From: Volvariella volvacea V23
Lineage: Eukaryota; Basidiomycota; Agaricomycetes; Agaricales; Pluteaceae
Reading direction: 5' to 3'
DNA: 64,000 nucleotides
Assembly: GCA_000349905.1 (NCBI GenBank)
Contig: KB722740.1
Span: 1,048,624-1,112,623 of the forward strand
Shown: positions 38-42,259 of the stretch, piece after piece
How positions within the stretch are numbered: the first letter of the stretch is position 1
Layout of the letters: each line of letters begins with the position of its first letter
Translations under genes and position numbers: made by a program
The notes under the pieces: model-generated
What the model was told of the DNA's origin: nothing
Database searches by the model: none
What the model saw: only the letters and a program-made list of their open reading frames with translations

Positions 38-334
38 TTACTTGGAGCCGCAGTTGCACTGGCCGGGGCACTGGCAGCTGTTGGAATGCGCCATCAGCGA
101 TTGGTCGTAATGAAGAGGCGTAGAAAGATAAGACGCGGAGCGATGATTCAAAAATCGGATAGGAATAAAGGTGGACGCATAAAATCAACGAGGATGACGA
201 CGACTTACTTATCGCCGCAGTTGCAATTGGGGTTGCCGCAATGAAGGTCGACAGGAGTGTCGGTGAACTGAAATGTGCGCAAATAGGGATCAGCACGGTA
301 TCATATATGCGTCGAGGTGGCTTACAGAGATCAT
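38..334 (-). CDS. MT1: short metallothionein, 7 Cys
   Basis: Small cytosolic metal-binding protein that should chelate Cu(I), Zn(II) or Cd(II) through cysteine thiolates. Three exons on the minus strand: 326-334 (ATG ATC TCT), 209-267 and 38-77, with GT...AG introns. The product is 35 residues with seven Cys spaced C-x4-C-x-C-x3-C-x-C-x3-C-x-C and a C-terminal CNCGSK. The first exon carries only three codons, as in every MT of this window, which is why the gene is invisible as an open reading frame. Closest relative in the window is MT7 (same FTD start of exon 2, same GSK end, same GAT AA/C splice codon). A TATA box lies 87 bases upstream of the ATG. Family assignment rests on the Cys pattern; which metal it binds cannot be read from sequence. 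Confidence 0.88.
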
Positions 335-420
335 ATTGCACGTAGGAGTAGCAGTAGAAGTAAAATTGGAGGTGGTGGTAGTAGTTGGGAAGAAACCCGC
401 CCTCGCACAATTGTCTCACC

Positions 421-761
421 TTATATACCCCCTTCCCAGCTCAACCACACCGCACCACACCACCAGCCAACGGGGCCAAATAATTCAATTGAATAAACTA
501 GATTAGAATAGACTCCACGATCGCACTCTAAATTTGGACTCTTGATACTTTCCATCATCGCATCATCGGGTTCCTGGACAACCAACGCCTGATGGTGGGT
601 CAGAGCACGGGCTTGAATGGGCATCATACCTTGCACGTTCTGCGTCTTGCGTGTGGGGTTGCGTCCAAGGCCGCATCTGACGATACAAGATGCGCAAGTT
701 GATGCGCGCCCCCATCTAGTTTCATATGTGTCTAAACGGAACTTAATTGAGGCAATTATGC
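421..761 (-). promoter_or_regulatory. MT1 promoter: TATA box and distal MT element
   Basis: On the minus strand TATATAA is at 421-427. The region just downstream of the TATA closely matches the same place at MT7 (GAGACAATTGTGCGAGG against GAGACATTTGTGCGAGG). A distal copy of the shared MT element, GCATAATTGCCTCAA, lies at 747-761, about 413 bases before the ATG. The remainder of 335-1026 shows no convincing gene. Confidence 0.5.
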
Positions 762-1026
762 ATTCGATCACTGACGTCGCCAATGACGATTGCACATCTC
801 CAACGCGGGGGACGCCGCGTTGGACGAGTACTAGAGCGCTCGAGGCCGCAGCTCGCACGCGCGACTCAAAAACCCTTTTTGAGACAACGAGCAAGATGGC
901 AATTCAACATACTGATTCATTTCATTTAACATTTTGCTTCTGATACAGCGCTACTTCACAATGTACAACAAACAGCCGCAAGGTCCGCCAACTCGAAAAA
1001 CCAGATTTTTAGGAGAGACCCAACCC

Positions 1027-1896
1027 TTAAAGCTTAGACTCGCCGGTGAAGCGCTTCTCGGCCTCATCAAAGTTGATGACGTTCCAGATAGCGTTGAGGT
1101 ACTACGCGTGTTGAATTAGTCTCAGGTGGGACGGGGTAATGCCTTGGATCAACTTACATCGGCCTTGACATTCAAGTATTGGAGGTAGAAGGCGTGCTCC
1201 CAGATGTCGACACCGATAATGGGGATGTGGGTGAGGAGAGGGTCTTGGTTGGCGGTGGTAACGATCTCGAGGACCTTGGTGGATGGGTTAAGACCCTGGG
1301 ATGCACTGCGCTTAGCCTACAGAATCATACGCAAGATAGATGGGCGACTTACGAGCCAGCCCCATCCAGAACCCTGGATCGCAGCGGTGGTGGTGTTGAA
1401 CTCCTTCTTGAAGGCCTCAACACTTCCGAATGCGCGAATGATAGCGTCCTTCAAGGGGCCATCCTTGAGAACACCACCGTTGCCGCCCTTGCTGGAGGAG
1501 GGGGCAAGGTTCTTCCAGAAGAGGGAGTGGTTGATGTGTCCTGTCAATCGCGTAGGTTAGATATGTCCCCCCTGCAATGATGCATTATATGAAGACGCGA
1601 TGTTACGGCGAAGGCCGAGCTGGTGCAGATAATGCGTTATCGCACCGACCGCGGGGTGATAAGATGATCGATTGACGGAATCATGGAAACTTACCACCAC
1701 CGTTGAACTTGAGAGCAGCCTGGAGGGCGATGCGCTCCTTAGGGGTGGAAGCCCTTGCGTATGCCTCCTCGGCTGCATTGAGGGCATTGACGTAAGTCTG
1801 ATGGTGTTTCTTGTGGTGCAGGGTCATGATCTGCTCCGAGATGAAGGGCTCGAGAGCATTGTAGTCGTATGGGAGATCAGGGAGAGTGTGGGCCAT
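1027..1896 (-). CDS. Mn superoxide dismutase, no targeting peptide
   Basis: Converts superoxide to oxygen and hydrogen peroxide. Four exons: 1695-1896, 1353-1540, 1158-1295 and 1027-1101 give 200 residues. Metal ligands expected for the family are all present: His27 (LHHKKHH), His72 (GGGHINHS), Asp160 and His164 ([10 protein letters not shown]); Gln147 in NQDPL points to Mn rather than Fe. The ATG (context CAACCATGGC) starts directly at the mature domain ([12 protein letters not shown]), so there is no visible mitochondrial presequence, and the enzyme is probably cytosolic or peroxisomal. The end, GESKL, is not a clean PTS1 signal (SKL-like, preceded by E), though it does end in SKL and could act as one. 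Neighbour of the MT array and divergent from MT2. Confidence 0.93.
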
Positions 1897-2700
1897 GGTT
1901 GCTGGTTCAAAGATAAAAAGATGGGAGACAAGAAATTGATGGATTCAGTTTATAAGACCCGTTCCTCCCAGCTGTGATGTCAAGTCATGTGATGCTGGCG
2001 ATGAGTAATTCAGTCCTCCAGCGTCCTGAAGCAAGCTTTCACTGAATCATCACGACTTCGTCAGTACTGATGAAATGGCGTGGTCGCTGTCTCTTATCAG
2101 ATAAGATGGATCAAGGTCGTTGGTCGAAGCAGGAATCGAGTCATAAAAGGTGCTCGGTGGCCGACTGGTGCGCTTGTGAGTCGCTTTCCGTGCTATTGGC
2201 CAGTGAGCGACCAATTTCGCTTTCACAGGCTTCAGGGACTCATACGTCCAGAGCGTGCCAAAGTTGTCAAAAGTCGCCCTCCGTGACCCGTACATAAAGG
2301 GCAATCCGCTCTTTTTGGCCATACCTACTCGTCGGCCGAGTACGATAGCAATGACACCCTGAACTGGGCTGCCTTGTGAGCTCCACACCCCACGTTCCAC
2401 ACGACGGACTCGATGCCGGCCGGCCGGCCTCAAACGTACCCTAAAACTTAACGTCGCAATGGGGGCGTTGATTTGACGTTCGCGTTCTAGGGGCCTTGAT
2501 GTTGCCACGGCCTCGAGCTTCGCCTTGCTAGAAAATATCTCATCTGCCCCTCCTGAGTCAGTTCACACGATGCTGCATTGAAGGCGTTGTATTCTTTGAT
2601 CCAGAGTCGAAGCAGCACGAGTCAAAGCATTCCGGTCGGCACTCTCGCACAGAATCGTGCAGAAGCCTTACTCGGACACAAATAGAGATAAATAGTGGAG
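1897..2700. other. Intergenic, divergent SOD/MT2 upstream region
   Basis: About 800 bases between the SOD start and the MT2 promoter module. I see TTTATAAG near 1949-1956 that could serve SOD (minus strand). No coding region is supported. Confidence 0.4.
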
Positions 2701-2828
2701 AGCCAATCAGATGGTGAGATGACCACGGTACGTGGTCGCACAAATGTCTCGAGGAGGGGCGAAGTAAGAGGGTGAGTAATCGACGAGGTGGCGAAATACG
2801 CGGAAAGGGGAGTCGCTAAGGTATATAA
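2701..2828 (+). promoter_or_regulatory. MT2 promoter module (CCAAT, MT element, TATA)
   Basis: AGCCAATCAG at 2701-2710, GTCGCACAAATGTCTCG at 2735-2751 and TATATAA at 2822-2828, 92 bases before the ATG. The same three parts in the same order and near-equal spacing occur at MT3, MT4, MT5, MT6 and MT9. Confidence 0.65.
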
Positions 2829-2919
2829 GACCAACAAGTCGGTCGGGAGAAACTATCATAATTCAGAACTCAGATCACTTGCCATCACCATAACTCTTAC
2901 CAATTCAAACTCGATAATC

Positions 2920-3410
2920 ATGATCTCCGTACGCCGTGTCCCCCTTCTGTGCCTGGGAATTCCCTGCTTACGACGTATGCGATATCTTCAGATTTTTAAG
3001 GAGGACAGCTTCCAATGCGGCAACGCTGAGTGCAGTTGCGCTTGCAGCCAGGGGTAAGCCCTCCACGCTATAAGAAGTCTTTTCTTGATATTCATCCCTT
3101 GGCTCATAGCGGGATCTGCCAATGCAAATCAACTAGCTCTGTACGTCCTCCTCTCCGCGGTACGTGTCGAGGCGTAGGACTTACACACGTTTTGTAGGCC
3201 CTTGTTAATATGAACTGTGGCATGAGCTCTTGCAGTTGTGGTGCTAGGTAAGTAGCAACGGGTCCCTTGCCCCCCCCCACCTCCTTTCATCAGAATTCCC
3301 TTGATCTTCTCGTATTTTATTTCTGGCTCCCTTTGCAATCGTTGTGACGAAGATACTGATATGCCCGCTTTTGTAGCTGCGCCTGCAAGCCCGACGAATG
3401 CAAGTGCTAA
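2920..3410 (+). CDS. MT2: two-lobe metallothionein, 13 Cys
   Basis: Five exons: 2920-2928, 2992-3053, 3110-3140, 3198-3247 and 3377-3410, giving 61 residues with 13 Cys. Lobe 1 has C-x4-C-x-C-x-C-x5-C-x-C, lobe 2 has C-x4-C-x-C-x3-C-x-C-x4-C-x-C and ends ECKC. The linker is KSTSS. Lobes 1 and 2 are each split by a phase-2 intron and separated by phase-0 introns after a TCC/TCT codon, so the gene looks like an exon-module duplication of the short MT. Exon 2 has drifted (QCG instead of HCG, IFKED instead of the common ..ENVV), more than in MT4 and MT6. Predicted cytosolic thiolate buffer of metals such as Cu, Zn or Cd. Confidence 0.85.
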
Positions 3411-4055
3411 GCAGCTTTACGCTACTTTAGCGTAGTACGGTTAACTTTCTCGAAACACGTGCGAGCGCGACTTTGAGGATCTAGTGTAGCTATTGTTTTT
3501 ATTTCGACGGCGGCACATCTGCCTGCCTTCATTGGACTCAGCAGAGTGAATAAAAAAAGTTATTAATCGCAAGTCGGCATACAGAACAAATTATGGCTTT
3601 ACCTCTCGCGCTCAGTACTTGGCTTGCGTTCCCGAGTCTCACCTCTGGGTCCACGCCGTACATCTGAGTCCTTGGAATATCGTCGGTTTTAATTCGACAT
3701 CCAGCATTACTCCTGCTCTGAGATCCGAGCGTTGTCATCTATAAGGCCCAAATCAAGTGTGAATCTCGATTTTACATCTTGTTGTACACATGTTGCGATC
3801 AATCGCCCGAGTCCGCTCTTTGGTTTCCGCAAGCCCTGGATTCGCAAAAGAGCCTCCCTCTCGTCATCTTCCTCGGTACAACTTACAAGTGACGTAGTTT
3901 TCTTTGGCCTAGAATACAAAGGTCCAACGTGCAGAACGTCAAGCTGTCCAACTACAGTATCCAAAGTGCCAAGAACGTGTAGGATTCGTGCCATACTCGT
4001 GCAGCGGACAATGGAGATCCAGTACTTCTGTCCAAACAGCGGCAAATAATAGATA
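3411..4055. other. Intergenic between MT2 and MT3
   Basis: No gene seen. The stretch 3786-3880 and 3958-4050 is recognisably similar to 9730-9830 and 9868-9945 upstream of MT5, which marks it as part of the duplicated MT block. Confidence 0.5.
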
Positions 4056-4184
4056 GCCAATCAAGAGATTAAATGGTCCAGATCTGTCGTGCAAGTGCCT
4101 CATGGCCCATAAGAGGAGGAAGGAAAAACGGAAAGGTACAGCAAGTTATTAGCGTGGGGAGTGGCGTCGTTTGGGGTATTTAAA
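4056..4184 (+). promoter_or_regulatory. MT3 promoter module
   Basis: GCCAATCA at 4056-4063, element GTCGTGCAAGTGCCTCA at 4086-4102 and a TATTTAAA box at 4177-4184. Downstream of the TATA, GGGGTGAGGCTCT is shared with MT5. Confidence 0.62.
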
Positions 4185-4275
4185 CTCGATGGGATTTGGG
4201 GTGAGGCTCTACAAGACTCTTTCCTGAACTATCATCACAACCGCTCTTACCACTACCAACCCGAACTTGAACACT

Positions 4276-4520
4276 ATGATCTCTGTATGTCGCCTTCACC
4301 CTCCGTGGCCACGTCTTAGATTCTGATTGTATTCTGTCAAACAGGCTACTGAGAACGTTGTCAACATGCACTGCGGCGAGGCCAAATGCAACTGCGGTGA
4401 TAGGTGAGCAGCCGAGCTCCTCATCGCCTTCGTTTCTCTGTCTTCGTTGTCTGTCACACGGTAGCGGCTGACAAGGACTCTTACAGCTGCCAGTGCACAG
4501 CTGGTAACTGCGAATGCTAA
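4276..4520 (+). CDS. MT3: short metallothionein, 7 Cys
   Basis: Three exons, 4276-4284, 4345-4403 and 4487-4520, encode 33 residues with seven Cys: C-x4-C-x-C-x3-C-x-C-x4-C-x-C, ending CEC. Exon 1 is only ATG ATC TCT before a GTATGT donor. It begins MISATENVV and is the counterpart of MT5 in the second MT block; flanks of the two genes are also alike (GTAACA...GTGAAATGCTCT in both 3' regions). Function by family: cytosolic metal chelation. The short length matches described one-lobe MTs of ectomycorrhizal and saprotrophic Agaricomycetes (about 34-37 residues). Confidence 0.88.
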
Positions 4521-5267
4521 GCAGCGTCCCCCACGACGCTAAGCTGCGCCACACATGGTGCTACCAGGATTCCTTTGTACAATAATTTGAATTGCTTTTG
4601 GAGATTGTATAGTTGATGTCTATCCCCTTTGTCTGTATCTTAAACGTAACATGGATTTTGTGCCAGTGAAATGCTCTGTCAACGCTTCCCTCGAGGAGTT
4701 GCGGGGTGCGTGCCGAAAACGTTAAGCCCTATCAAGGAAATCTCGATGCTAATCTATACATGTCGTCCTTGGTTGTTGAAAGAAGCCTCCCGATTCCCGA
4801 GGCACGCTGATACAGGTCATATACTACCCGAGCCCCGCCATCGGGCCTGAATGAAACTATCAAGTCTCATTTCTCTCATTGCCTTCCAGCAGGTGAAAAG
4901 TTCAGAGTCGGTCGTCACCCCGTGGGCATGACACTGTCACGTCTCTACAATCGACGTCCACATACTCAACATAGAAGCCTAGACTCAGGCTCAGCTTACT
5001 ATGACAAGCCTGTCCATAGCTGTTATCACCACCACACCACGCCCTGTCCGTTCTCCGTTCCGCTCATCCATAAAATCCCTCAACTCTATCCACAAAATCC
5101 CTCATTAGTCACCTCCACAACATCAACGACATCGCGTCCATTTGCATAGAATCGAGAATTGCGGACCGATGAGTCAAGTGATCCGAGGACAGCACCCGAA
5201 CTGCCATGGGTGCAAGCAGGAATCATGCAGAGATGTCTGATCCGTAAACAGAGGCAAATAATAGATG
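4521..5267. other. Intergenic between MT3 and MT4, duplicated later at 10.4-11.1 kb
   Basis: No gene. Sequence from about 5050 to 5215 is strongly similar to 10926-11090 (for example TGCATAGAATCGAGAAT and GATGAGTCAAGTGATCCG in both), which shows the spacer was copied with the genes. Confidence 0.6.
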
Positions 5268-5382
5268 GCCAATCAGGAGAATAGCTGACTCGGATCGGTG
5301 GTCGCACAAATGCCTCAACGGAAGGTGGTGAGTAATTGAGCAAAGAAGTAATGCGGAAAGAGGACGTGCTAGAAATATTTAA
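5268..5382 (+). promoter_or_regulatory. MT4 promoter module
   Basis: GCCAATCA at 5268-5275, GTCGCACAAATGCCTCA at 5301-5317 and ATATTTAA at 5375-5382. Between the first two, GCTGACTCGGATCGGTG is identical at MT6. Confidence 0.68.
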
Positions 5383-5469
5383 GGACTAGGAAAATTGAGG
5401 AGGGCACTCAGAACTTGCCTCGAAAACGCCATCGCCACCTACACTACAAATATTAACTTGAACATCATC

Positions 5470-5891
5470 ATGATTTCTGTACGTCTCCTTCTCCCCTGAT
5501 CCCGCGGAGCATTTCCTGACTTCTTGGCCCTGCCAGACTATTGAGAAGGTCGTCAGCTCCCACTGCAGCAGCACCAAGTGCAGCTGCGCTTGCAGCCAAA
5601 GGTATGTATCCGCTATTTGTTCATTTTTCTCCTGATACTAATACGATTCACTTGCTTCCATTTACAGCGGTACCTGCCAATGCAAGTCCACCAGCTCTGT
5701 AAGTTCTCCTCTCCACAATCTATACTGAAGGACACAGCTGACCATATGTTATAGACCCCAGTCAGCATGCACTGTGGCGTAAACTCCTGCAATTGTGGTG
5801 CGAGGTAGGTAAAGATGGATCATTCGCCTTTTCTCCTCTAACGTACTTGTCCTCTAGCTGCGCCTGCAAGCCCAATGAGTGCAAATGCTAA
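5470..5891 (+). CDS. MT4: two-lobe metallothionein, 13 Cys
   Basis: Five exons: 5470-5478, 5537-5601, 5668-5698, 5755-5804 and 5858-5891, giving 62 residues. Lobe 1 (exons 2-3) reads C-x4-C-x-C-x-C-x5-C-x-C; lobe 2 (exons 4-5) is a complete short-MT lobe, C-x4-C-x-C-x3-C-x-C-x4-C-x-C, ending NECKC. The lobes are joined by KSTSSTPVSM. Intron phases are 0, 2, 0, 2, so each lobe is a symmetric phase-0 module interrupted by one phase-2 intron. Counterpart of MT6 in the second block. Likely a cytosolic metal buffer with two clusters. Confidence 0.88.
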
Positions 5892-7263
5892 ACTACTCAA
5901 TCTACTCTACTTGATGTCGTGGCACTCAAAGCTTGAGGAAAATCCTTTTAGATAGTTGTCTACGCATCAGCGTCAAGGACATCTATAATAGCTTATTTTG
6001 ATTTTAATTATTTGCTCCATTGGGTGCATAATAAACACCTTCACTTGATTTTGTTATTAGAGGACAGTTGAAGCAGGATCGACTTTGGATGTATACATAA
6101 GAGTACCGTATCTAAGTGTACAATTGTCTTGGGTAAGTTTTATCCTCATATCACGCAATGCACACAGGTATAAGATGAAGTGCGAATACTGATGAAAGAG
6201 TGCCCTTAGTTCATGTATCGTAGTATCCAAATATGCCTAGCTTGTTGTGGAACTGCATCACTCCTAAGATTTGCCTGTCTGGTTCTGGTTAACAAATGAT
6301 GATGGTGTGGAGATTCAAAGTGGTTTGGGGGAAATCGCTGGGCTTCTTTTCTCCACATGCTATGGCTAATTATACAGAATTACTAGCACAATGGTCAGCT
6401 TATGTGGTGTATTCAGCCCTTGAGACCTCTCTCAGGCCATTTTTAGACGTACATCTCTCGGATTATAACCTACGAGGCGGCAGAAAGGCAGACACGTCAA
6501 AGCATCTGCAAGGAGGCAACGCATAGCCAATTGCAGTCGCATTTCCAATAACTATTGAAGGGTATCAATTTATACAGCCCGCTTGGTGTATCAGTGTATT
6601 CCCCATACCACACTTGGGAGAAGAATGTCACCCCTGTTGTCCATCTGCGTTTTTAGTTATCCACGTGCAAAGTTGATGCATAATGCATAATGTCCAACAG
6701 ACTCCGCTCAGTGGAACGACATACACCTTCCAGATGATGAGGCACAAAATAAACGTACCACACTGAACTCGGTTGGATGAGAGTGACCCACATGCATAAG
6801 GTGTCGCCTTCGACAGGATGTCAAGATTTGGATGAGCTTTGGCATTTCCGAGGGAATATACAAGCTGGAGACAGGCGGTTTTTAATTCTCAGTGTATGCA
6901 ATAATGTCCATGCTACCGAGATTATGGCGTTTGTAGGATAGCGTCTCTGTTGTTTCCTCGAGAGGATTGTGTGTCGACCCTCTACACTATCTACTCAGTC
7001 ATGTAAGTGCATAGTAAGAAGATTCAAGGTCTGCATCACCAGGTGGGAGGCCCCTCGCACCTATGAGGTGCCTCACCCCTCGCAACATACTCGCAAATTG
7101 ATCACGGTGCACCGATAGACAAAAAAGAGTACATAGTGCGCACATTACACTGCGGAAGCTACAAAGAAATGCAAAACTGCAAATGAGGAACTTTTGATTG
7201 GATAGCACTAATGTGGGTCTGGCAACGAGCACAACCTGTACTGCACTACCCACCACCCGCCAT
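5892..7263. other. Gene-free stretch between MT4 and F-box gene
   Basis: About 1.4 kb. No coding region can be supported on either strand. A perfect 6-base-arm hairpin with an ATG loop sits at 7057-7071, probably chance. Confidence 0.4.
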
Positions 7264-8919: not shown

Positions 8920-9141
8920 ATCGCGTATCGGAGGATTGGGCTGATGTGGTGCAAGAGAACTGGAAACAACTGGTTGGACGACAGGTTGCAGAAGCACATC
9001 ACCGTCACGTGCAACTGCGCTGGTGCGTAAGAGTGAAACTCGCAGAATTTGCTGAGTGGTGTGCTGGTCATCGACAGGCCCTTGGGAGAGAACCACTCGT
9101 GAAATATGCCGACCAAACCACCGCTAAACCCGTATATCATC

Positions 9142-9431
9142 ATGATCTCTTTACGTCTTTCCTCGCCTGATGGCTGACACCGTTATTCCACCAGGCTTCT
9201 AAGAGCACCGTTCGCTCCCACTGCGGCAACGCCAAGTGCAGCTGTGCTTGCAGCCAGGCGACGCTCCAGGTCATCTTTTCTTAACATTCACGCCTCGTTC
9301 TTGTAGCAGAACATACCAGCGCAAATTCACTCGCTCTGCACGCTCTCCCCTCTGTAAATGTATATCGAGACGCTCCTTTTGTAGACCCCTGTTAACACGA
9401 ATTGTGGCATGGGCTTTTGCGGCGCTGCTAG
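9142..9431 (+). pseudogene. Decayed two-lobe metallothionein
   Basis: Aligns with MT2 and MT6 from the ATG (ATG ATC TCT) on but is broken. The first donor is TTACGT instead of GTACGT. Exon 2 (from 9195) keeps HCGNAKCSCACSQ but its donor has become GCGACG. Exon 3 (from about 9309) has lost both cysteines (TYQRKFTRS where the others have TCQCKSTSS) and its donor is GC. Exon 4 (from about 9385) keeps NCGMGFCG and ends in a GCAAGT donor; no exon 5 follows. No CCAAT/MT-element/TATA module is present upstream, where the F-box gene begins. It occupies the first position of the second long-short-long MT block. Confidence 0.82.
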
Positions 9432-9951
9432 GCAAGTAATAATGAGCCCTTTAGCCCTTCACCCTCTTTTGTGGAGCTTCCTTCCTCCAGACCGGGGGCG
9501 AGGTTGAGTCGAGGGTTTGGTTATCTGGTCGGTCTGCGCACGTTGAAATGTGGCCGCCGGAGGATAGAATTCCTGCACCATCACCCAACTACACACGTTG
9601 GACCTTTCTGTACGCTCCCCCAGAAAGGATTCGACCCCGCCCTCCGTGTCATCTTGAAATTCAAAATCAAATACGAACCCTGACTTGGCCTCCGTTGACG
9701 TTCTTCAGACAGCACCGACACGTGCATACTGTAGTAAGTTCGGCCAGTCGCCCGCTCTTCGATTTCCGCAGTCCCTGATCCGAATGCCAGAAGGCACCTC
9801 CTTCTCGTCATCTTCCTCGGCCCAGAGCAGAGTCGATGCGTGGTGAGCCAAACTATCCATCTATGGTATCCAAAGTGCCAAGAACGCGTCACATTTGCGT
9901 ACAGTGGACAATGGGGAATACTCCTGCCCAAACAGCGGTAAATAATGGATA
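9432..9951. other. Intergenic between MT pseudogene and MT5
   Basis: No gene seen. 9730-9945 resembles the MT3 upstream region 3786-4050 (shared TATCCAAAGTGCCAAGAACG and TCTCGTCATCTTCCTCGG). Confidence 0.5.
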
Positions 9952-10079
9952 GCCAATTACAAGATCGTATGGCCGAGATCTGGCATCAGTCGCACTGGCA
10001 AATGCCTCATGGGAGGAGGAAGACGAAAAGCGGACTAGTGAATAATTGGCGTGGGGAGTGGCGCATATGGGGTATATAA
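9952..10079 (+). promoter_or_regulatory. MT5 promoter module
   Basis: GCCAATTA at 9952-9959; the MT element at 9989-10009 carries a four-base insertion (GTCGCAC, TGGC, AAATGCCTCA); TATATAA at 10073-10079. Confidence 0.6.
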
Positions 10080-10168
10080 GTTCCATGAAACTTGGGGTGA
10101 GGCTCTCCAGAACTCTGTTCTTGACCATCACCACCACTCTTACTACTATCACCTCGAGCTTCAACATC

Positions 10169-10386
10169 ATGATCTCCGTACGTCGTCTTCATCATCGTTG
10201 ACTAGGTCTCGGATTCTGACTTGCGTGTGTTGCAACGACAGGCTGCTGAGAACGTCGTCAACATGCACTGCGGCGAGTCGCATTGCAACTGTGGTGCTAG
10301 GTGAATAGAACGATTCCTTCGTTATCTGCGATGCTGATAAGGGCTCTTGTAGCTGCGCCTGCAAGCCTGGTGAATGCAAGTGCTAA
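10169..10386 (+). CDS. MT5: short metallothionein, 7 Cys
   Basis: Exons 10169-10177, 10242-10300 and 10353-10386 encode 33 residues: MISAAENVVNMHCG start, seven Cys with spacing C-x4-C-x-C-x3-C-x-C-x4-C-x-C, end GECKC. Paralogue of MT3 in the duplicated block, but its last exon (CACKPGECKC) resembles the second lobe of the two-lobe genes more than MT3 does (CQCTAGNCEC), so exchange between neighbours is possible. Role by family: intracellular metal binding. Confidence 0.88.
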
Positions 10387-11135
10387 GCGGCAGCACCTAA
10401 TAATTTAGGTTGCGCCTCACTTGGTACTACCACGACCGCCTCCATTCAAATTGCCTTACGATTTGTATAGTTGACGTCGCACTACCTTTGTCTGTGTATC
10501 ATAAATGTAACACGAATTGTGTGTTTGTGAAATGCTCTACCAGCCCTTTCCGGAAGGGACTAACTCGCATAGCGTGTGCCCCTTAAGGTCAAGCTCCATC
10601 AACGAAATTTCCATGTCGATCCGTCAAAGATTTGCAAAGAGAGGGATTCTATGACATCTGAGGCACATCGATCAAACCTGAGTATTGCCCCCGAAGTTCG
10701 AGACCTTTAATCAAACCTCATTCAAAGCGCCACACACCACCCCCCACGCGGTGTGAACACATCTATGGATGGATGACTTCCTCTCTCAACGCCTGTCCTT
10801 CGGCTGCTCCCGCTCTGAACTTGGTCATGGGTAATTCATTTGTGCTGACGAACCAGTGAATTACTAGTGTGTGATCTAACCGAACGATGTCGAATGTTCC
10901 AACGCGACTGCGCAGCGTCGCACCCCGTCCCCACTCATCCAGAAAATGCCTCAACTCATCCACAAAACCCCTCATTATTCATCTCTACCACATTAATGAC
11001 GTTCCTCCCATCTGCATAGAATCGAGAATGACGGTCTGATGAGTCAAGTGATCCGGGTACAGCACCTTGACTGCCACGGGTGCATACGTGGGGGATGGAG
11101 ATTACTCATGCATAAACAGAGGTAAATAATGGACG
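10387..11135. other. Intergenic between MT5 and MT6
   Basis: No gene. Copy of the MT3-MT4 spacer; the match is clearest from 10926 to 11090. Confidence 0.55.
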
Positions 11136-11250
11136 GCCAATCAGGAGGTCAGCTGACTCGGATCGGTGGTCGCACAAATGCCTCAACGGAGAAGCAGTGA
11201 GTAATTGAGCGAAGCAACAATACAAAAAGGGGAAGCGCTGGAGGTATATA
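11136..11250 (+). promoter_or_regulatory. MT6 promoter module
   Basis: GCCAATCA at 11136-11143, GTCGCACAAATGCCTCA at 11169-11185 (identical to MT4) and TATATAA at 11244-11250. Confidence 0.68.
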
Positions 11251-11351
11251 AGGTCGACGGAAACGGAGGAGGACCATCAGAACTCGTCCCAAACCCACCA
11301 TCGCTACTACCACAGTTCACTCGTACTACCAACTTCAACTCGAATATCATC

Positions 11352-11710
11352 ATGATCTCTGTGTGTCTCTTCTTCTCTTGATCTTGGCGAATCGTTCACT
11401 GACACCGTTATTCTCTTAGGCTTTTGAGAACGTCGTTAGCTTCCACTGCGGCAACGCCGAGTGCAGCTGTGCTTGCAGCCAGGGCGGCACCTGCCAATGC
11501 AAGTCCACTAGCTCTGTAAGTTCCTTCTCCCTTCCGAGTGCCAAGATGCACGACTGACGCTTGGAAATAGACCCCAGTCAACGCGCATTGCGGTGTGAGC
11601 TCCTGCAATTGCGGCGCTAGGTGAGCAAAAGTGAATGATTTCGCTCTGCCCCCTCTGCTAACATGCTCGTTCCCAGCTGCACATGCAAGCCAGACGAGTG
11701 CAAGTGCTAA
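11352..11710 (+). CDS. MT6: two-lobe metallothionein, 13 Cys, one intron lost
   Basis: Exons 11352-11360, 11420-11515, 11571-11620 and 11677-11710 encode 62 residues. Lobe 1 is C-x4-C-x-C-x-C-x5-C-x-C, lobe 2 the standard seven-Cys lobe ending DECKC. The intron that splits lobe 1 in MT2 and MT4 (after AGC CAG GG or CAA AG) is absent here: AGC CAG GGC GGC ACC TGC runs through without any scar. The other intron positions and phases are conserved. Counterpart of MT4 in the second block, and the best-preserved of the two-lobe genes. Function by family: cytosolic metal buffering. Confidence 0.88.
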
Positions 11711-14138: not shown

Positions 14139-14793
14139 AGCGCACGGGAGCCCAGTTGAGTTCATGCCATAAATTATGCATCACCACGAACTACTTCAAT
14201 GTATGCGAAAATTTGCCAATGACATTCCTCGCCCCCATGCGTGATTGTCTAAGTCCCTGTGCAAAACAAAATGTCAAGCGAGTTGGTATTGGTGGAGGCG
14301 ACGAAGACAGCCGCGATGGCATGGATAATTTTGTCTCATACCAAACAGACTGGCTGTCGCATTTTTGACATACGTGGTCATTAGGAATACCACTGAATGC
14401 AAGAACCCAAACCGTTCGCGTCCGTCCAAGGCATTCGTGAATATGTCAACGAAATTCGAGTAGGGATTAGAGGAAGTGCGATCTTCCAACTTCATTGGTG
14501 AATTAAGGCTCTAAGCACGCACGCAGTCACTTACCACAAGAGCAACTACTTACTACAAAAAGCGGTCAGCCTTAGGCTTCTGGCTTTGTCCAATCCCAAT
14601 TTATAGAGCCGAAATAGATCTCAAGGCTGACCCGGTGTCAAGAGGGCGCTTGCGCAACACTGAGTGCTGCAGGCACTGATATCGTCGGACAAGGGACTAC
14701 TTGGATCGAGCGAGCGAGCGCAAAAACTCACTCAGTTTATGCGTAGATTTAAATCCCCGCAGTCGGCTATGCGTGCCTCACCCAATCCATCTT
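14139..14793. other. Intergenic
   Basis: No gene or repeat recognised between the reductase and the frameshifted F-box gene. Confidence 0.35.
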
Positions 14794-15871
14794 ATGACTC
14801 TCCCCTCCGATCTTTGGGAGGAGATTTCTACCGACTCGGGAGCTGTTGATCATCGAATCTATGCGTATCATCTCGATTTCTTCTTGAAGTCGTCCGACCA
14901 GTGCCATACCGCAATGTGATCCTCCACAGCTCACGACCCAGGACGGCGATGACTTGCCAATTGCTCATTGAAAACCCACGCCTTGCTTCGAGTATCCATG
15001 AAATTCATCTTTCGACAAACGACGACCGCACCTATTTGTGTGATTCTATCAACTGGCCTCCTGTCTCTGCTTTTCGGAATATGACAGGCCTCCGGAAGTT
15101 GGTTTTGTCGGGGAGGAGTCCGTTCAAGAAAAAGGCAAAGCAACCTCAACCCACCACCTTTAGTGGACCAGACCTTGCCGCTCTCGAATTTTTCGCTATG
15201 GACTTCCCGATGTTGAAACGTCTCTGCATCGGCTTTATACCTACAAGCAACGAATTCCCACAGTTTACGCAGTTTCTCAACAATCACTCCACGATTGAAC
15301 ACCTCACGCTCAGCTATATGGCTACCAGGTCCCGGAGTGTGCAACTCGCACGACGGCTCATTGAGCCAAACCTACTTCCCAACCTAAAATATCTTCAGTG
15401 TAGCCCTTCTGACGCGATTTCCCTCCTCGAACGAGGGGTTAATTTTCTTGCGTCGCTCCAAGAGCTCCATGTTGTCCACGATGGGCCATTGAGCGCAGAC
15501 ATAGTACACATAAAGGAATTGATTAGGCGAATCGATGACGCAGGTACCCCATTTTCAGACCTTCAAAACCTCACGTTTCCCTTAAATACTCGTTACGGGT
15601 ACGATTACCCTTTCGATATGTGTGTCGACCGGTTGGAGATATTGGGTGTGGCAAGCCCCAGGGTGTCGCATCTTCGCATTTCACTGGATTGCCTATCGCC
15701 CCTTTTCTTGATTCCTTGTGCGCAGAACAGGTGCCGTTGTGCTCCCAGCAATGCTTCGATTGTATTGCTAGATCATTTCCTCAGATCCGTCGTGTTGAAC
15801 TTCGTGGCCTCGACTGGGGGTATGATTGGAACGACATCCGAGATCTTAATGACACCGTGGGCAATGTTTGA
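14794..15871 (+). pseudogene. F-box/LRR gene with two frameshifts
   Basis: Begins MTLPSDLWEEI, the same F-box start as the intact gene at 24739-26156 (MTLPTDIWADV). Around 14850-14870 the frame shifts by one base: the expected F-box continuation (LCVSSRFLLEVVRPVPYRNV) reads in another frame, in which the central part stays open from there. Near 15690-15715 a second shift occurs inside a CCCCTTTT run, after which a typical C-terminal segment (FPQIRRVELRGLDWGYDW) reads to a stop at 15871. No GT...AG intron of usable size explains either shift. Either this is a pseudogene or the draft assembly has two indels; the nearby N gap makes poor assembly plausible. Confidence 0.65.
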
Positions 15872-16204
15872 GACCGGCGCCGCCGGNNNNNNNNNNNNNN
15901 NNNNNNNNNNNNNNNNNNNNNNNNNNNNNNNNNNNNNNNNNNNNNNNNNNNNNNNNNNNNNNNNNNNNNNNNNNNNNNNNNNNNNNACGCAGATGATAAT
16001 ATTAATGCTCACATACCATCAAATCCAATACCTTGTCATGAACTCCTTGTACATCCAACTGCCGGTAAAGTGAATTTACTTTGACATGAAATTTGAGTAT
16101 ATTCACGGTTTATTTAACAGAGATACTGAAGCGCTAACTAGAAGCTACTTCAAGGTTTATTCTCAGTATTCTCCGACGCCGGTTTCAAACATTGCCCACG
16201 GTGT
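15851..16204. repeat. Inverted repeat around gap 1
   Basis: 15851-15879 (starting GACACCGTGGGCAATGTTTG) matches the reverse complement of 16176-16204 at all but one or two positions. The left arm contains the last codons of the frameshifted F-box gene. It could be a real foldback or a mis-join made when the contigs were scaffolded. Confidence 0.7.
15887..15986. other. Assembly gap 1 (100 N)
   Basis: Exactly 100 N, a placeholder length. It is flanked by an inverted repeat (15851-15880 and 16176-16204). Confidence 0.98.
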
Positions 16205-16559: not shown

Positions 16560-16845
16560 ATCGCAGAAATGCCTCAACCCCAATAGGGGATTCAACGCCG
16601 CGGGATGTCTACTCAGGTGAGCATTTCCAATCGTCAGCCCAGAGAGAACGCTTTCCATGATCCGGAGGAGTAAGCATGTCACGAGCGCAGCGACGACTTG
16701 AGCTTAAATGAAGGGGCCATCATAATGAGCGAAGCATTGAGTCACGAAAAGGAGACCCGATTATGCAGCGGAACTAATTAAGGAAATTGGAATTGGGGCT
16801 CGGGTGTGGAGTAGGAGGTTTTCGGCTTGGCCTGCAGGTATATAA
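16560..16845 (+). promoter_or_regulatory. MT7 promoter: distal MT element and TATA
   Basis: ATCGCAGAAATGCCTCA at 16560-16576, about 376 bases before the ATG, and TATATAA at 16839-16845. No CCAAT box of the GCCAATCA type sits beside the element, unlike the block genes, but the distance resembles that at MT1. Confidence 0.52.
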
Positions 16846-16935
16846 GATGAGACATTTGTGCGAGGCAAGGTTTCTTCTCAACTTCCATCATCAGATTTTA
16901 CTTGCTACTCTACTCGCTATCAGCTACTCTTCAAT

Positions 16936-17181
16936 ATGACCTCTGTGAGAGCAAAGGCCTTCGGTCTAGCCGCCTTTGTGTTGATCTTGGTATTTGCAGT
17001 TCACTGACACCTCTGTCAACTTCCACTGCGGAAACACCAACTGCAACTGTGGCGATAAGTAAGTCATCGCTATTCCGCCATCTACTCCCCACCCTCGCCT
17101 TATGATTGAACTGTCCGCTGATGTGCTCACTTCCCCAGCTGCCAATGCCCTCCTGGACAATGCAACTGCGGCTCCAAGTAA
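16936..17181 (+). CDS. MT7: short metallothionein, 7 Cys, CNCGSK end
   Basis: Exons 16936-16944 (ATG ACC TCT), 17000-17058 and 17139-17181 encode 36 residues with seven Cys, C-x4-C-x-C-x3-C-x-C-x4-C-x-C, followed by GSK. The C-terminal CNCGSK recalls the classical Neurospora and Agaricus 7-Cys metallothioneins. Sister of MT1: both start exon 2 with FTD, share the GAT AA/C splice codon and share sequence after the TATA box. Predicted cytosolic metal chelator. Confidence 0.88.
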
Positions 17182-27141: not shown

Positions 27142-27193
27142 GTTGGTGGTTGTGGGTTAAATAAAGATGTGAACTGCAATCGTGGCTAGCAAG

Positions 27194-35500: not shown

Positions 35501-35882
35501 CAGAGTTGGAGGTGAAATGTCGGGTTAAAGGAACCAGACTATTTCTGGTCGTAAAGATGGTCGGGCGGTGGGGGTAATTGGAATCTTGGATCATTGATCC
35601 AGGCAGGGTCGTGTAGCTAATGACGATGATACTACGGATATAATAGCCTCCCCAAAGACCCTCCTATGGCTGCCAAGGGGTGCCTCGTATTCATACCACA
35701 CAGACCAGAGCTCAGGACCCTTCATTCTCCCAAATCTTTTCCTCCATCTTAATATCTCATTCTTGTCCCCGTCTCGAGGCCCTGCGGCGAGGTCCACACG
35801 AGCCTCAACACCACTCGACCTCCCCTCGCCCTCACCCACCCCCCATTTCGCCCTCCTACCTCCAACACCCAAGCTCGCCCAA
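32552..35882. other. Longest gene-free stretch (3.3 kb)
   Basis: Upstream of the phospholipase C gene. Read on both strands; open frames here (for example 33609-33914) lack family signatures, splice structure or a sensible context. Could hold an unrecognised non-coding or lineage-specific gene, or a long regulatory region. Confidence 0.4.
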
Positions 35883-38800
35883 ATGTCCAACCCTCCTTCG
35901 GAACCAAGCCCATGGACGCTCCAGCGTGCAACCAATATACTGACGAGCAAAGGCAAGCCCATCAAAGAGCTAGCAGTCCTTCTCAATGAATCCAGTACCA
36001 ACAGCTCCAAGAAGGCGCCCAAGAAGCCATCACGTCACACCTCGACGACCACAGCTCCCACCATAGATGACAAGTTTGTCGACGACAACACCAGCAGCAA
36101 CCTCGAAGCCTCGTCTTCCAGTGTCGATGGCACAACTCCTCTGAGCGAAGTTCCCACCGAAGACGACAGTGCATCGTCGGTCCATGCGACGCCGAAGAAG
36201 CTCAAGCGGAGCAGTCTGGGCGCCTCGATTAGACGGAAGCTGAACGCGGTGGGGCTGAACCTGGGAGGAAAAGGGAGCAAGAGCCTGCACGACCAGCAAC
36301 CGGCGGCGTTGATTCGTCCACGATCACCATCGGCCGCCGCTCCCACAGCCACCGCCCACCCTTCCTCTGACCCGGCTAGTCTCAACGGCGGACTCGGGAT
36401 TCCAAACGTCGTTGGAGGCAAAGGACATGCGCGATCGCGCACAGAAAGCGTCATCCCGTCGCCAACAATAGCCTCCGCGTCCGCCGCCACAGATGCCGCG
36501 CGCACACCAATTGTTTCTCTTCCCATTCCACCCAACACCCATCCCTTGCCTTCAAGTTTCTCAAGCTCCGTCGCCAATCCAAAGTTGAAAGTAAACACCG
36601 ACTTGGCTCGAGATAAGGACGTAATGCAAGCGTCCGAACGACGTCAACGCGACCCAAGTTCCGGGATAGCCGCGCCTTCGCCCCCCGCCCCCAACCCTGC
36701 CTCTTCATCCTCGCTTAACCGTCCAACGTCCACCTCGAACCAGCCTCGCAGTGGCAAGGCTAGTCTCGACGTCAGCGAGGACGCGAGCGACGGTATCCAG
36801 CATGGAGAGGTCACGGTTCCACACGAACTGCAAGTCGGCGTGGTCATGACCCGCATTTCGGCCAAGAACCAGAAACAGCTGGTGTTTCGCATCGACCCGG
36901 ACCAAGGGCAGATCGTATGGGAGTCGAAGAAGCGGAAAATAAGTGAGTGTCATCTGTGTATTCTCTTGGCCCCAAGTCCCCACCCGCCGCCCGTCCCGCT
37001 GCTTTGATCGTTGACTGACTTTGGTTTTAACCTCTACATATGTACCTCCACCCACTCCATCCCATCACCCTCCCATGCTGTCCACTCGACTGCGGGACGC
37101 AATTGTTACTCCTGATGCCGCCGGTGTGGCCCCATCGCCCGCTTAACTCCTAGTCCCCATCGAGACCGTCAAGGAGATCCGATCAGGCAGCGACGCGCGA
37201 TACTACCGCGAGCAGTTCCAGCTCTCGCCCATCTACGAGCCGCGCTGGCTCTCCCTCATCTACGTCGTCAACCAGAGCAACTACAAGTCTCTGCACCTCG
37301 TGGCGCCCACGAGAGAGCTGTTCGCTCTCTGGGACTCGACGCTGAAGAAGATGTTTGCTGTGCGACAGGAGCTGATGAGCGGGATTGGGCATTATGAGAT
37401 GAGGGAGATGATGTGGGAGAAGCTTTATTGGAAGAGCTCGACCACGGACGATGATGGGATCGGGAGGAAAGACAGTGTTGGCGCGGGGAGTAGTGGTGAT
37501 GTCTCTGCGCAGCCAGAGGGCCGGTTGACGTTTGAGGAGGTCGAGAAGCTGTGTCGACGGTTGAATATTAATTCGAGCGTGGAGGACTTACGGAGGTGGT
37601 TCACCGTATGCTGCGATTTCGTCATCTATTGTGAGCTCGTGTTAATGACTTTACAGCAATCCGATACGAAGAAGCGGGGTTACCTCGATTTTGAGGATTT
37701 CCGCAAGTTTGTAAAGTGCCTCAAGACACGGCCGGAGATCAACAGGCTGCATAAGAAGCTGATCAAGGAGTACGGGGGCTCTGCGAGCACGTCCAACTCT
37801 GCGACTTCAGCTACTGACAACACCAACCCAGGCGTTTTTAATTTCAATGTCTTTGAGAGATTTATGAAGGAATGCCAGAAGGTACGTTGTGCATCCACTT
37901 CATCGAACACCATCGCTGATGTTATACCACAGTCCACACTCAGCACCGAAGAACTAGAGACCTTGTTCAACTCATATTCTGCCGAACTACCAATACCGCT
38001 ATCGCCCTCGATATCGAGATCAACAACGACAGGATCGCAGCTACAACCATCGCCGCCAACACCCGTTACTAATACCCAAGATGAATCAACTCTGTACCAA
38101 TATCAGCAACGTAATAATATTCCCCCAACATCTATACCCACACAGCCATCGCCCCTTGCTTCGTCATCCAACGCCATCGCCACTCCACCATCCGCGCAGC
38201 CAGTGGACCAGCCTACGCAAACCGCCCAAGTCTCCCAGGTTGCCCTTCCTGCTCCGCAAACACAACGAATCATGACGGTCGAGAACTTCACCTCGTTCCT
38301 GATGTCGGCCAACAACCCTGCGCTGTCGCCTCAAGATCGGAAGGTTTGGCAGGACATGACGAGACCGTTATGTGATTATTACATCTCGTCATCACATAAC
38401 ACGTACCTTGTCGGACACCAACTCGTCGGTGAAAGCACCGTGGAAGGTTACATTAGGGCCTTGCTAAGAAGCTGCCGAAGTGTTGAAGGTACGTTCTCTT
38501 CGTTGCTTTATAATATCCATCCAATATGCTCACACCCGCTCCTTTAGTCGACATCTTCGACGGTGACGTCGAACCCGTCATCTTCCACGGCAAAACTCTC
38601 ACCACCAAAGTCTCCCTGCGCGAAGTCTGCCAAGCAATCCAAAAATACGGCTTCATCACGTCCCCATATCCCATTATAATCTCGGCCGAGGTGCACTGTG
38701 GACTGCAGCAACAGACGATGATCGCGAACATTGCAAAGGAGGTCTTTGGAGAGAGCTTGATCCAGGCGCCGTTGGAGGGGAGGAAGAAGATTGAGGTTTT

Positions 38801-41310
38801 GCCGAGTCCGGAGGAGTTGAAGGGCAAGATTATGTTCAAGGTTGGCGCTTTGGTGCTTTCCGATGAGGTCCTGCTGATGTTGTGTTCTTGTGTTTAGACC
38901 AAGAACCTCTTTATCTCCCGGTCGGGACGAGAGTCGTCGTGGGACGGTGATAGCTCAACCACGACGGAGGCTTCGTCGTCGGCTTCGGAATCTGAAGGCG
39001 CGCTGCAAGAGTTGCAAGATTGGGTTTATAGACGTCGAGGCTCAGAGGCCAAGAAAGGTCCGCCTCCTTGTTCTTGTGTAATAGGACGATGGCTAACAGA
39101 GAACACCTTTTTTAGACAAAGAGGAGTCAAGGTCGTTTTCGGCTGCTATCGTTGAGCGCGTTCAAAGCATCAGAAAGCGAAAGCAGACTCCAAGCAACGC
39201 TGCCCCACCGACGCCCTCAAAAACTCCAAACAAGGCTACTTCCCCTTCGCCTTCACCACCCCCCGCTTCCGTCCCCCCTAACCCATCTCTGACTACTGTG
39301 CTAACTTTGGCTCAACCCGAAACAACGGGGACACTACACCCCTCACCTGCGGCACACCAGGGTCCCATCCACGATGCCTCACCGTCAAACGCACACACCC
39401 GCAGTCGGTCTAGCAGCAGCGTAGGTGCTGCCGCTGCCAGTCTTATCCAAAAGGCGATTCCGAGTTCGATCAAGCCGCGGCCGTCGAAACCTCCTTCCCA
39501 ATCGGAACCGTCGCAAAAGCGGAATTCGGCGATTGCTAGCCCACCCAAGGCGGGAAGTATCATCGTTCCCCCGACTGCGAGACCGGAGGCGCCATCTGTA
39601 CCGTCTACTCCAGCTGTAGGGCCTAGCTCCCCTGCTGCTGTGTCGCCGACGATGACAACTATGGCAACGCCGACGACCTCTACGCCGACCACTGTTATTC
39701 CATCGTCTTCAGGGCAGGTAGGGTTCCCACCCGTCCGTACCGCGAGCACCAAGCCGCCGAAGATGTCGCTTGAGCTGTTAACGCTGCTCGTTTACACCGT
39801 TGGCGTCAAGTTCCGCGGGATCAACAAGAAAGAGGAGTACGCCACGGAGCATATGTTTTCGTTGTCGGAGACGAGTGCCAACAAGCTGATCAAGTCGAGC
39901 TATGTCGTTGAAGCTGGCTCGGCAGGCGTGGAAGATGGAAGTGGAGGTGAACAGTCGAGTGTGGGCGGTAATATTGTCGAACGGAAGAGCAGTGGGAGTG
40001 GTGATTCCATCTCGACTGCATCGGCAGGAAAGCTGGTTATGGGTGGTGGATCTGGGATGTTGGACCTGATCAAGCATAATCGGACTCATTTGACGAGGAT
40101 ATATCCAAAGGGGACGAGGGTCAGTTCGACGAACTATGAGCCTCATAGGCATTGGAGCGCCGGTTCGCAGCTCGTTGCGATTAATTGGCAGACATTTGGT
40201 CAGTAGCATCGGAATTTCGTCAACAACCGGCTTTTGCTGACCTTGTTCTAGACTTGGGCTACATGCTCAACCATGCCATGTTCCAGCGAAACGGCCGGTC
40301 GGGCTACGTCCTCAAACCACCTGCACTAAGCAGCACCGGCTCGAAAGAGATGCTCACCAAACGAACAAGACATATCCTCCATGTTCGGGTCATTTCAGCC
40401 CAACAACTACCCAAGATGAAAGACTCCTCCGGTCGAGAGACAGAGAAGGGCGGCAGCGCCGATCCATTTGTGGAAGTCTCGCTCTTCGTCCCTGATTGGG
40501 CTAACCCTAGTGGGAAAGCGAAGAAGAGCGGTGGAGGGAGTAGAGTCAATGTGGGAAGGGTTAGAGGCAGTAGTTTCGTGGGCGGAAACACCGATGCATC
40601 AGGTATCAAAAACAGATCTAAACAGGCGGTCGCAGGTGGTGCGAAGGAAAGAGTCGGGAGCACGGATTCTTGGGTAGATTTGGGTGCCGAAAACAGCTCG
40701 ATATCCCGGCAATTGCACGAGTCTGGCGTCCTGACTGCCTCGCCCTCCAATACGCTCTCAGTCCCAGCAGCTCCGACATCCTCGTCATCGCCACCCGTGA
40801 AATCGATTCTGGGGAACGAGCACTTTGTTGTATCGCCATCATCGACGTTAGCCCCTATTTCGTCCGCGCTGTATCCCACAGGAAATGCTGCCCCCAACGG
40901 GGCCCCGTTGCTCCCTGCTACAAACCCGGCTATGGAGGGCACGGTGATTCCGGGCAAGACGACCTCGCTTAGGACATCGGCGGTGAAGAACAACGGATTC
41001 AACCCCGTTTGGGAGGAGGATCTGAGATTGCCCTTCGAAGTCGTCGGCGATATGAAGGAATTGGTGTTCGTCAAGTTTACGGTCAGACAAAAGGAGAACA
41101 GTGAAAGTGAAGAAGCGCTCGCCGTATATTGCATCTCGTTGGCCTCGCTTCAGATGGGTAAGTATTGTTCGTTATCTAGTCGATTTGTGTCCAGTACTCA
41201 CTGAGGACGCGTTAGGCTATCGACACCTCCCGCTGCATGATGCACAGCTGTCGCAATACCTCTTTTCGACACTCTTTGTCCGCATTAACGTCCAAGATCT
41301 TGATATCTAA
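35883..41310 (+). CDS. Phosphoinositide-specific phospholipase C (delta-like)
   Basis: Hydrolyses PIP2 to diacylglycerol and IP3 in Ca2+ signalling. Nine exons (35883-36942, 37154-37605, 37657-37881, 37933-38488, 38548-38840, 38898-39057, 39116-40198, 40252-41157, 41216-41310) give 1609 residues. Order: long Ser/Pro-rich disordered N-terminus; PH domain at about 320-430 ([22 protein letters not shown]); EF-hand-like region at about 460-580 ([14 protein letters not shown]); catalytic X box with His734 (SSSHNTY) and His778 (IFHGKTL), VEVDIFDGD Ca2+-site and SAEVHCG; a disordered X-Y linker of roughly 260 residues; Y box from about 1130; C2 domain at about 1320-1600. Exon 1 is chosen from ATG 35883 (upstream frame lacks an ATG). 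Catalytic residues intact, so presumably active. Confidence 0.93.
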
Positions 41311-41859
41311 GGGGATGTTTGGCGAGCTGCCTGTTGGTGTGCTTTGCATTGAATGGGTTTGATACCTGTATGCATCGTGCACCCGACATTCTCTCCACTC
41401 TATCCCATATCCTTATCAATTGAGCTATCCCTTATGTCAGCTTCCGACCTTGGACTTACGCCATTTGACACTTCTCTCTTTCTGAATACGGCCAGCCAGT
41501 ATACATTTGTAACATTACTTTACAACACTAGATAGCTATTTCGCGCGTATATACTTATTAAAATATTCTCATTAACATCCCATCCAATGTCGCAATGCTT
41601 TGTAGGTTAGAAGCTCGTGTAACTTAGAGTGTACGTTATGTCTATGCGAATTCTCTGACATGCGCACGAGTGCAGGGCCTATTGAAGTACAGTCACTGCT
41701 ATCAACTCGTACATTGTAAGGAGAGAATGTACCGGTCAATTGAGTGGATAACTCAACTTTGCGCAATCTACCTCGGCCTTTCAGGAACGTGATGACCAAG
41801 GCATTGCTCCTCATATGACTAATAATATGACGATGGAAGGAAGAGCTAAATAATGGATA
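41311..41859. other. Intergenic upstream of MT9
   Basis: Phospholipase C 3' region and distal MT9 promoter; nothing else seen. Confidence 0.4.
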
Positions 41860-41965
41860 ACCAATCACATTCCGTACCGAGGTCGCATAATTGCCTCAAG
41901 GATTCAGGGTAAAGATATGGAATGCTTATCATTTGAAATTTGTGGAGTCGGGGCACCGTATATAA
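41860..41965 (+). promoter_or_regulatory. MT9 promoter module
   Basis: ACCAATCA at 41860-41867 (preceded by TAAATAATGGATA as in MT5 and MT6), GTCGCATAATTGCCTCA at 41882-41898 and TATAAA at 41960-41965. The module is preserved 30 kb away from the main array. Confidence 0.65.
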
Positions 41966-42042
41966 AGGGGAATTTCCGTCCATTTTCGCAAATCAAGCCC
42001 ACCACCATCCCAGCCGACATAGTTCAGACGCAAAGCAACACC

Positions 42043-42259
42043 ATGGTCTCTGTAGGTCCTTTACCTCTCTGTCGGCGGCACTTTCTAACGCCCCGCCTTT
42101 CATTCATAGGACGTCGAGAACCCAATCAACCTCCACTGCGGTAACTCTTCCTGCGAGTGCGGCGCTGGGTAAGTTCTTGCTGCCAGTGAAGCGTTGCGTC
42201 AATTTGATGCTAGCCCCCTCTCCAGTTGCCAATGCAAGCCTGGCCAGTGCAAGTGCTGA
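42043..42259 (+). CDS. MT9: short metallothionein, 7 Cys
   Basis: Exons 42043-42051 (ATG GTC TCT), 42110-42168 and 42226-42259 encode 33 residues starting MVSDVENPINLHCG and ending GQCKC, with seven Cys in C-x4-C-x-C-x3-C-x-C-x4-C-x-C. Same intron positions and phases as the others. It stops with TGA where all others use TAA. It stands alone between phospholipase C and an F-box gene, yet keeps the full promoter module, so it is probably co-regulated with the array. Predicted cytosolic metal chelator. Confidence 0.88.

Follow-up and report, generated by a model that had tools for sequence, protein, structure and literature searches.

The 64-kb window analysed here, a stretch of 64,000 nucleotides from contig KB722740.1 of the mushroom Volvariella volvacea V23, carries nine intact metallothionein (MT) loci (A, B, C, D, F, G, H, I and J) and one dead one (E), and two further MT genes, K and L, lie unlinked on contigs C3 and C14 (Table 1). 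Our reading, which we consider probable, is that this is an old and diversified Agaricomycete MT cluster in which a triplet of genes was duplicated, one of the copies, E, died, and a shared promoter element serves as what we infer to be metal-responsive control. That the loci belong to the known Agaricomycete MT family is in itself ordinary; the new parts are the size of the array and the promoter element.

Table 1. Positions of the MT loci and their promoter elements in the window, with the two unlinked genes
Feature	Position	Strand	Details
MT A, short, 35 aa, GSK tail	38..334	-	exons 334-326, 267-209, 77-38; MISFTDTPVDLHCGNPNCNCGDNCQCPGQCNCGSK
Promoter element of A, TCGCACAATTGTCTCA	403..418	+	reverse relative to gene, just downstream of TATATAA
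Composite promoter of B	2703..2827	+	CCAAT - TCGCACAAATGTCTCG - TATATAA
MT B, long	2920..3410	+	exons 2920-2928, 2992 (or 3001)-3053, 3110-3140, 3198-3247, 3377-3410
Degenerate promoter element of C, TCGTGCAAGTGCCTCA	4087..4102	+	AAATAATAGATAGCCAATCA block at -232
MT C, short, 33 aa	4276..4520	+	exons 4276-4284, 4345-4403, 4487-4520
Composite promoter of D	5269..5381	+	TATA-like box is TATTTA
MT D, long, 62 aa	5470..5891	+	exons 5470-5478, 5537-5601, 5668-5698, 5755-5804, 5858-5891
MT E, dead long copy	9142..9438	+	lacks its first donor and its last exon; cysteine codons partly altered
Composite promoter of F	9953..10078	+	spacing from TCGC to AAATGCCTC is 6
MT F, short, 33 aa	10169..10386	+	exons 10169-10177, 10242-10300, 10353-10386; second donor GTGAAT weak
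Composite promoter of G	11137..11250	+	
MT G, long, 62 aa	11352..11710	+	exons 11352-11360, 11420-11515, 11571-11620, 11677-11710
Distal promoter element of H, TCGCAGAAATGCCTCA	16561..16576	+	forward orientation
Proximal promoter element of H	16848..16863	-	reverse orientation, adjoins TATATAA
MT H, short, 36 aa, GSK tail	16936..17181	+	exons 16936-16944, 17000-17058, 17139-17181
MT J, short, 33 aa	26931..27141	-	exons 27141-27133, 27079-27021, 26964-26931; MTPSVEIIVDSHCGSYECECGSGCRCKPEECKC
Composite promoter of I	41861..41966	+	
MT I, short, 33 aa	42043..42259	+	exons 42043-42051, 42110-42168, 42226-42259
MT K, unlinked	contig C3, L007 1320-1536		MISATQTPANYAGCGSNSCNCGSSCQCKPGECKC
MT L, unlinked	contig C14, L062 1310-1536	reverse complement	MISNIENPVNAHCGLDKCSCGNECSCKPDECKC; composite promoter as in cluster

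Gene structure and family membership

The initial annotation had listed nine loci, eight of them intact and one dead. All nine could be rebuilt from the sequence where they had been placed, over a span that runs from the stop codon of A at position 38 to the end of the stop codon of I at 42259, and eight (A, B, C, D, F, G, H and I) have complete spliced frames; the defects of E were called by reading of the sequence. The count was nevertheless too low, as J, which surfaced when the window was compared with itself, had been missed. Its frame (MTP/SVEIIVDSHCGSYECECGSG/CRCKPEECKC) is intact and its exon phases are those of the other loci. The spliced MT signature was not found in the 10 kb to the right of the window.

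Each of the nine intact window genes has the three-codon first exon that had been described for the listed loci, and in each the first intron is in phase 0 and the last in phase 2; the claim that intron positions are conserved throughout has to be relaxed for G, which lacks intron 2 of B and D. The proposal of two architectures is borne out by the gene models. Short forms have three exons (9, 59 and 34-43 nt), intron phases 0/2 and seven cysteines; long forms have 13 cysteines, with exons of 9, 65, 31, 50 and 34 nt in D and phases 0/2/0/2 in B and D. All seven cysteines are kept in the ten intact proteins that were aligned (A-D and F-K; the C14 gene stands outside the alignment and matches the spliced signature). 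Two candidate acceptors for exon 2 of B give a protein of 61 or 58 aa, and an automatic exon finder missed the models adopted for D (a different acceptor) and F (the weak donor); these come from the conserved junctions.

The MT identity of the loci, as first proposed, is upheld by a search with a ten-sequence profile, which returned 13 protein matches, eight of them carrying the name metallothionein. Among these matches are MTs of Serendipita, Laccaria bicolor, Russula, Cystoderma, Amanita strobiliformis and Suillus himalayensis (E 1.4e-10 to 9.6e-7). A search with the single sequence of G found no homologue among proteins, and a search of PDB gave no usable match. It speaks against this identity that a Pfam scan of four of the proteins gave nothing above the cut-off and, for three, no match at all (I reached 19.1 bits with PF05522, for which the cut-off is 23 bits). 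Because the 13 public homologues likewise have no precomputed Pfam domain, we read the missing match as a gap in the library.

According to the accessible text of PMC12508003, Agaricomycete MTs share a heptaCys motif, C-x4-C-x-C-x3-C-x-C-x4-C-x-C, and come in a short type of at most 35 aa and a long type of at most 59 aa, with small introns. The genes reported here resemble the MTs treated there (AcMT1/2, LbMT1/2, HcMT1/2, HmMT1-3, PiMT1, AsMT2, CcMT1/2 and ShMT1/2) in all three respects, the motif being applied to the cluster proteins as C-x4-C-x-C-x2,3-C-x-C-x4-C-x-C. They differ from those MTs, as far as that text describes them, in that there are at least 11 intact genes, the long forms reach 61-62 aa (B possibly 58), H has 36 aa, the last cysteine spacing of A is x3 instead of x4, and A and H end in GSK. 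The suggestion that this is an unusually large number of MT genes holds against Table 1 of the same source, which has 1-3 genes of this kind per species, but not to the full extent: at least five MTs have been named in Amanita strobiliformis, isoforms included (AsMT1a-c and AsMT3, in the accessible part of PMC5924815; AsMT2, PMC12508003), and therefore the contrast in gene number is smaller than the table suggests. No mushroom MT cluster of comparable size is among the matches listed in our literature searches, judged by title and the start of the abstract.

Two public entries, P0127 and P0128 (Armillaria and Coprinopsis), differ at the N-terminus where several others begin M-x-S, and their odd N-termini probably reflect missed three-codon exons. 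It is plausible, as proposed, that ORF-based annotation would overlook these genes, and a first exon of only three codons would be a reason for gene callers to misstart them.

Chance tests and the genome-wide count

A regular expression for the spliced signature (exon 2, intron and last exon), written after the genes had been seen, gave nine matches in the window, eight being genes of the initial annotation and the ninth being J, against none in 100 simulated 64-kb sequences. The start-motif scan (two mismatches at most) is by itself unconvincing evidence for a cluster, with 18 matches where 9.5 are expected and 1 of 100 shuffles as high. L001, the sole start-motif match away from the cluster, lacks the MT signature and was rejected.

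Four scans of the 35.39-Mb genome for DNA coding for the last exon (AG[C/T/A/G] plus C-x-C-x4-C-x-C) gave 13, 6, 6 and 7 matches, and their reversed-pattern controls 9, 7, 3 and 6. The spliced signature identifies ten of the 32 matches as MTs: the first scan gave B, C, D, F, G, H and K, the second I, the third J and the fourth L. The other 22, in which that signature is missing, were discarded, and they are at chance level since the controls gave 25 in all. Gene A falls outside these patterns because its last spacing is shorter. The genome (35.4 Mb) thus holds at least 11 intact MT genes and one pseudogene, a count that MT genes with other cysteine spacings elsewhere in the genome could escape. 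Queries of the whole genome returned few relatives: DNA of H matched A alone besides itself, an exon of G matched only G, E and B, and the protein of F matched only F and C. By eye, K looks more like MTs from other mushrooms than like those of the cluster, a point that the protein tree does not settle.

Duplication history and selection

In our best reading of the sequence, B-C-D and E-F-G would be the products of duplication of an ancestral long-short-long triplet, after which E would have died. This is clear for C and F (69% DNA identity over 764 bp) and for D and G (75% over 554 bp), which form collinear blocks, and for the spacers, of which matched pairs are 64% and 62% identical compared with 51%, 49% and 43% in three unmatched comparisons, and it is weaker for B and E (69% over 248 bp). 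Several alignments weigh against so clean a history: B aligns with D (67% over 270 bp) nearly as well as with E, and also with G (91% over 47 bp of exon 2 and 70% over 164 bp of promoter), while E resembles G at its start (76% over 147 bp). Because B and E also match D or G, their pairing is the weakest part of the scheme and rests on position and spacer. Gene conversion may have played a part, or the events may have come in another order. A and H are an inverted pair (70% over 248 bp, promoter sequence included), and I and J lie further off. In a protein tree of 18 rows only one of 15 inner branches was starred, that joining A and H; the tree was not used for dating or rooting.

The long form looks like a short gene in which the unit of exon 2 and exon 3 has been doubled, and the accessible text of PMC12508003 likewise argues that the long type arose by internal duplication. 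The exon lengths of D repeat the phase pattern of the short genes, which is what such a doubling would produce; in G, the intron between the first exon 2-exon 3 pair is missing.

Across loci, the longest DNA alignments have 69-75% identity, and the other MT proteins are 48-81% identical to G. With dS at about 0.5-1.2 in the closest pairs, the copies are old and therefore not duplicates made by the assembly. Values of dN/dS in the closest pairs are low (C/F 0.36, D/G 0.14, B/D 0.16, B/G 0.10 and A/H 0.06), and every cysteine is conserved in all 15 pairs computed. Selection is less evident in distant pairs, where H/I gives 0.53, K/H gives 0.78 and three pairs with J are saturated, and these figures count against our interpretation; they are weak figures because they come from 33 codons.

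A shared promoter element

The claim of a shared promoter module stands up well. Most promoters of the cluster have TCGC(N2-6)AAWTGYCTC. Upstream of B, D, F, G and I, and likewise of the unlinked gene on C14, it stands between a CCAAT box and a TATA-like box. This composite did not occur in any of 43 non-MT loci (137,210 bases; the set takes in 13 loci with off-target element matches and excludes L039 and two all-N loci), nor in any of 60 simulated windows. In F and the C14 gene the two halves of the element are four bases further apart than elsewhere (a spacing of 6 compared with 2). The exact sequence TCGCANAANTGYCTCA occurs seven times in the genome, six of these in MT promoters of the cluster (once each at A, D, G and I and twice at H), and the seventh, on C9, falls inside what by eye is an open frame; reversed-pattern controls gave 0 and 0. 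A matrix built from five forward sites (B, D, G, H and I) ranked the held-out reverse sites of H and A fourth and sixth among all positions on both strands of the window. This is the fair test, as a matrix of seven sites necessarily ranks its own seven sites first. B, C, D, F, G and I have a block of the form AAATAAT...CCAATCA with at most two mismatches; at J the match is weak, with 6 mismatches where 300 random windows gave 7-10, and A, E, H and K, with 8-9, lack the block. Upstream of E the composite module was not found, only a weak 12-bit match to the element.

A number of observations tell against our interpretation here. J and K do not have the element, A and H do not have the CCAAT block, and the element of C is degenerate. 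In the ranking by the seven-site matrix, the eighth match is a non-MT site at 63787 (17.7 bits) and the site of C comes only tenth (14.7 bits). The looser pattern TCGC(N2-6)AAWTGYCTCR has 22 matches in the genome (reversed controls 3 and 3), eight in the cluster and one at the C14 MT gene, and the remaining 13 are away from MTs. Moreover, common ancestry accounts in part for the presence of the element in the promoters of B, D, F and G.

A search that allowed one mismatch gave seven matches in the genome, three of them off the cluster, which by arithmetic is about the chance expectation. One, at about 1501-1517 of L025 (contig C6), lies upstream of a frame that by eye resembles a tyrosinase (tyrosinases are copper enzymes); as some three such matches are expected by chance, it may mean nothing.

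Candidate regulator

ACE1/Cuf1-type sites have a GCTG core. GCTGA is absent from both strands of the 600 bp that precede A, B, C, F and I, and the corresponding regions of D, E, G, H, J and K contain it. Unlike Cuf1-type sites, the cluster element does not contain this core, so the factor that binds it may be another protein. Among the literature matches listed, none describes a control site for these MT genes.

The genome has three copper-fist loci. On contig C27 (L036/L039), a copper-fist domain and a cysteine-rich stretch lie about 1.2 kb apart on the same strand; the two probably belong to one gene, which would be a candidate copper-responsive regulator. There is precedent for such regulation in Cryptococcus neoformans, where, in the accessible text of PMC5812535, the copper-fist factor Cuf1 activates MTs. 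Those are basidiomycete MTs as well, there under metal control.

Neighbouring features

A gene for a Mn/Fe superoxide dismutase (1040-1896, minus strand) lies between A and B; Sod_Fe_N matches its first exon (E 7.4e-23) and the rest of the gene was read by eye. The MT element was not found in its promoter. An open frame of 610 aa that has no Pfam match starts near E on the opposite strand. Within the cluster, a run of N at 15852-16204 has a 31-base inverted repeat (94%) on its two sides and may mark a mobile element or a hairpin that broke the assembly. The gene just before I has a PI-specific phospholipase C X domain (38526-38897, E 7.8e-30). Between 42900 and 49600 there are three consecutive long open frames (42947-44353, 46453-47979 and 48218-49576), and the second, the only one of the three tested, contains an F-box. 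For a neighbouring CAP10-type gene, the best-scoring named matches are from Agaricales at about 60% identity (best 120 of 343).

Alternative explanations

The initial annotation had favoured selection for dosage. On this view the array would make more of one product in a metal-exposed fungus, as CUP1 does in yeast. Nine intact copies within 42 kb and their shared promoters would fit, and there is precedent for multi-copy MT loci with neighbouring copies: CUP1 arrays of 2-18 repeats are known (PMC4232551) and some strains of Candida glabrata have more than 30 copies of MT-IIa (PMC5812535). As far as the accessible text of these sources goes, however, a CUP1 array consists of repeats of one gene, and both cases are amplifications of a single gene, whereas the present locus is a diverged mixture of long and short forms with a pseudogene and unlinked members. 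No near-identical repeat unit of the CUP1 kind was found; protein divergence from G, the two lengths, the GSK tails, the differing promoter layouts and the dS of the closest pairs all speak for heterogeneity. We therefore regard dosage as possible but rather unlikely; an old, diversified birth-and-death family is a better fit because the copies have diverged, one is dead and two are unlinked. It is equally improbable, in our view, that birth and death were mostly neutral, with unequal crossing over outpacing decay and many copies redundant. The death of E, the isolation and divergence of I and J and the loss of an intron from G are what such a process would leave behind, but the closest pairs have dN/dS of only 0.06-0.36 with all cysteines kept and some dS near 1, and an unlinked locus has retained the element, as have A and H in the opposite orientation. 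That one or two genes were over-counted as haplotype or collapsed-repeat copies is hardly credible; there are 300 N in the window, but no two loci are near-identical and their introns differ in length and number.

With regard to the element, we tentatively entertain the idea that the composite module is the metal-response promoter of mushroom MTs, read by a sensor other than a classic copper-fist/GCTG factor, acting in either orientation and with spacings of 2 or 6, so that a diversified, metal-specific toolkit would answer to one switch. A real, if minority, possibility is that the element is instead a general core-promoter or stress site. It adjoins the TATA box at A and H and its looser form occurs at 13 non-MT places; against this, the strict form is nearly confined to the MT cluster, the composite with CCAAT and TATA was found at none of the 13 off-target loci, and the superoxide dismutase promoter within the cluster does not have the element.

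Returning to the diversified cluster that we favor, each gene would encode a peptide of 33-62 residues whose cysteines would bind cytosolic Cu(I), Cd(II) or Zn(II). If the shared element is metal-responsive, much of the MT set would be switched on together. Differences in sequence and promoter (the reverse elements and missing CCAAT block at A and H, and the missing element at J and K) may then divide the work by metal or by tissue.

Lists of characterised mushroom MTs give a handful of genes for each species, and a repertoire of at least 11 genes makes a history visible, in which a block was duplicated, a unit doubled within a gene, an intron lost and one gene disabled. An element nearly confined to MT promoters would also offer a handle on how Agaricomycetes sense toxic metals.

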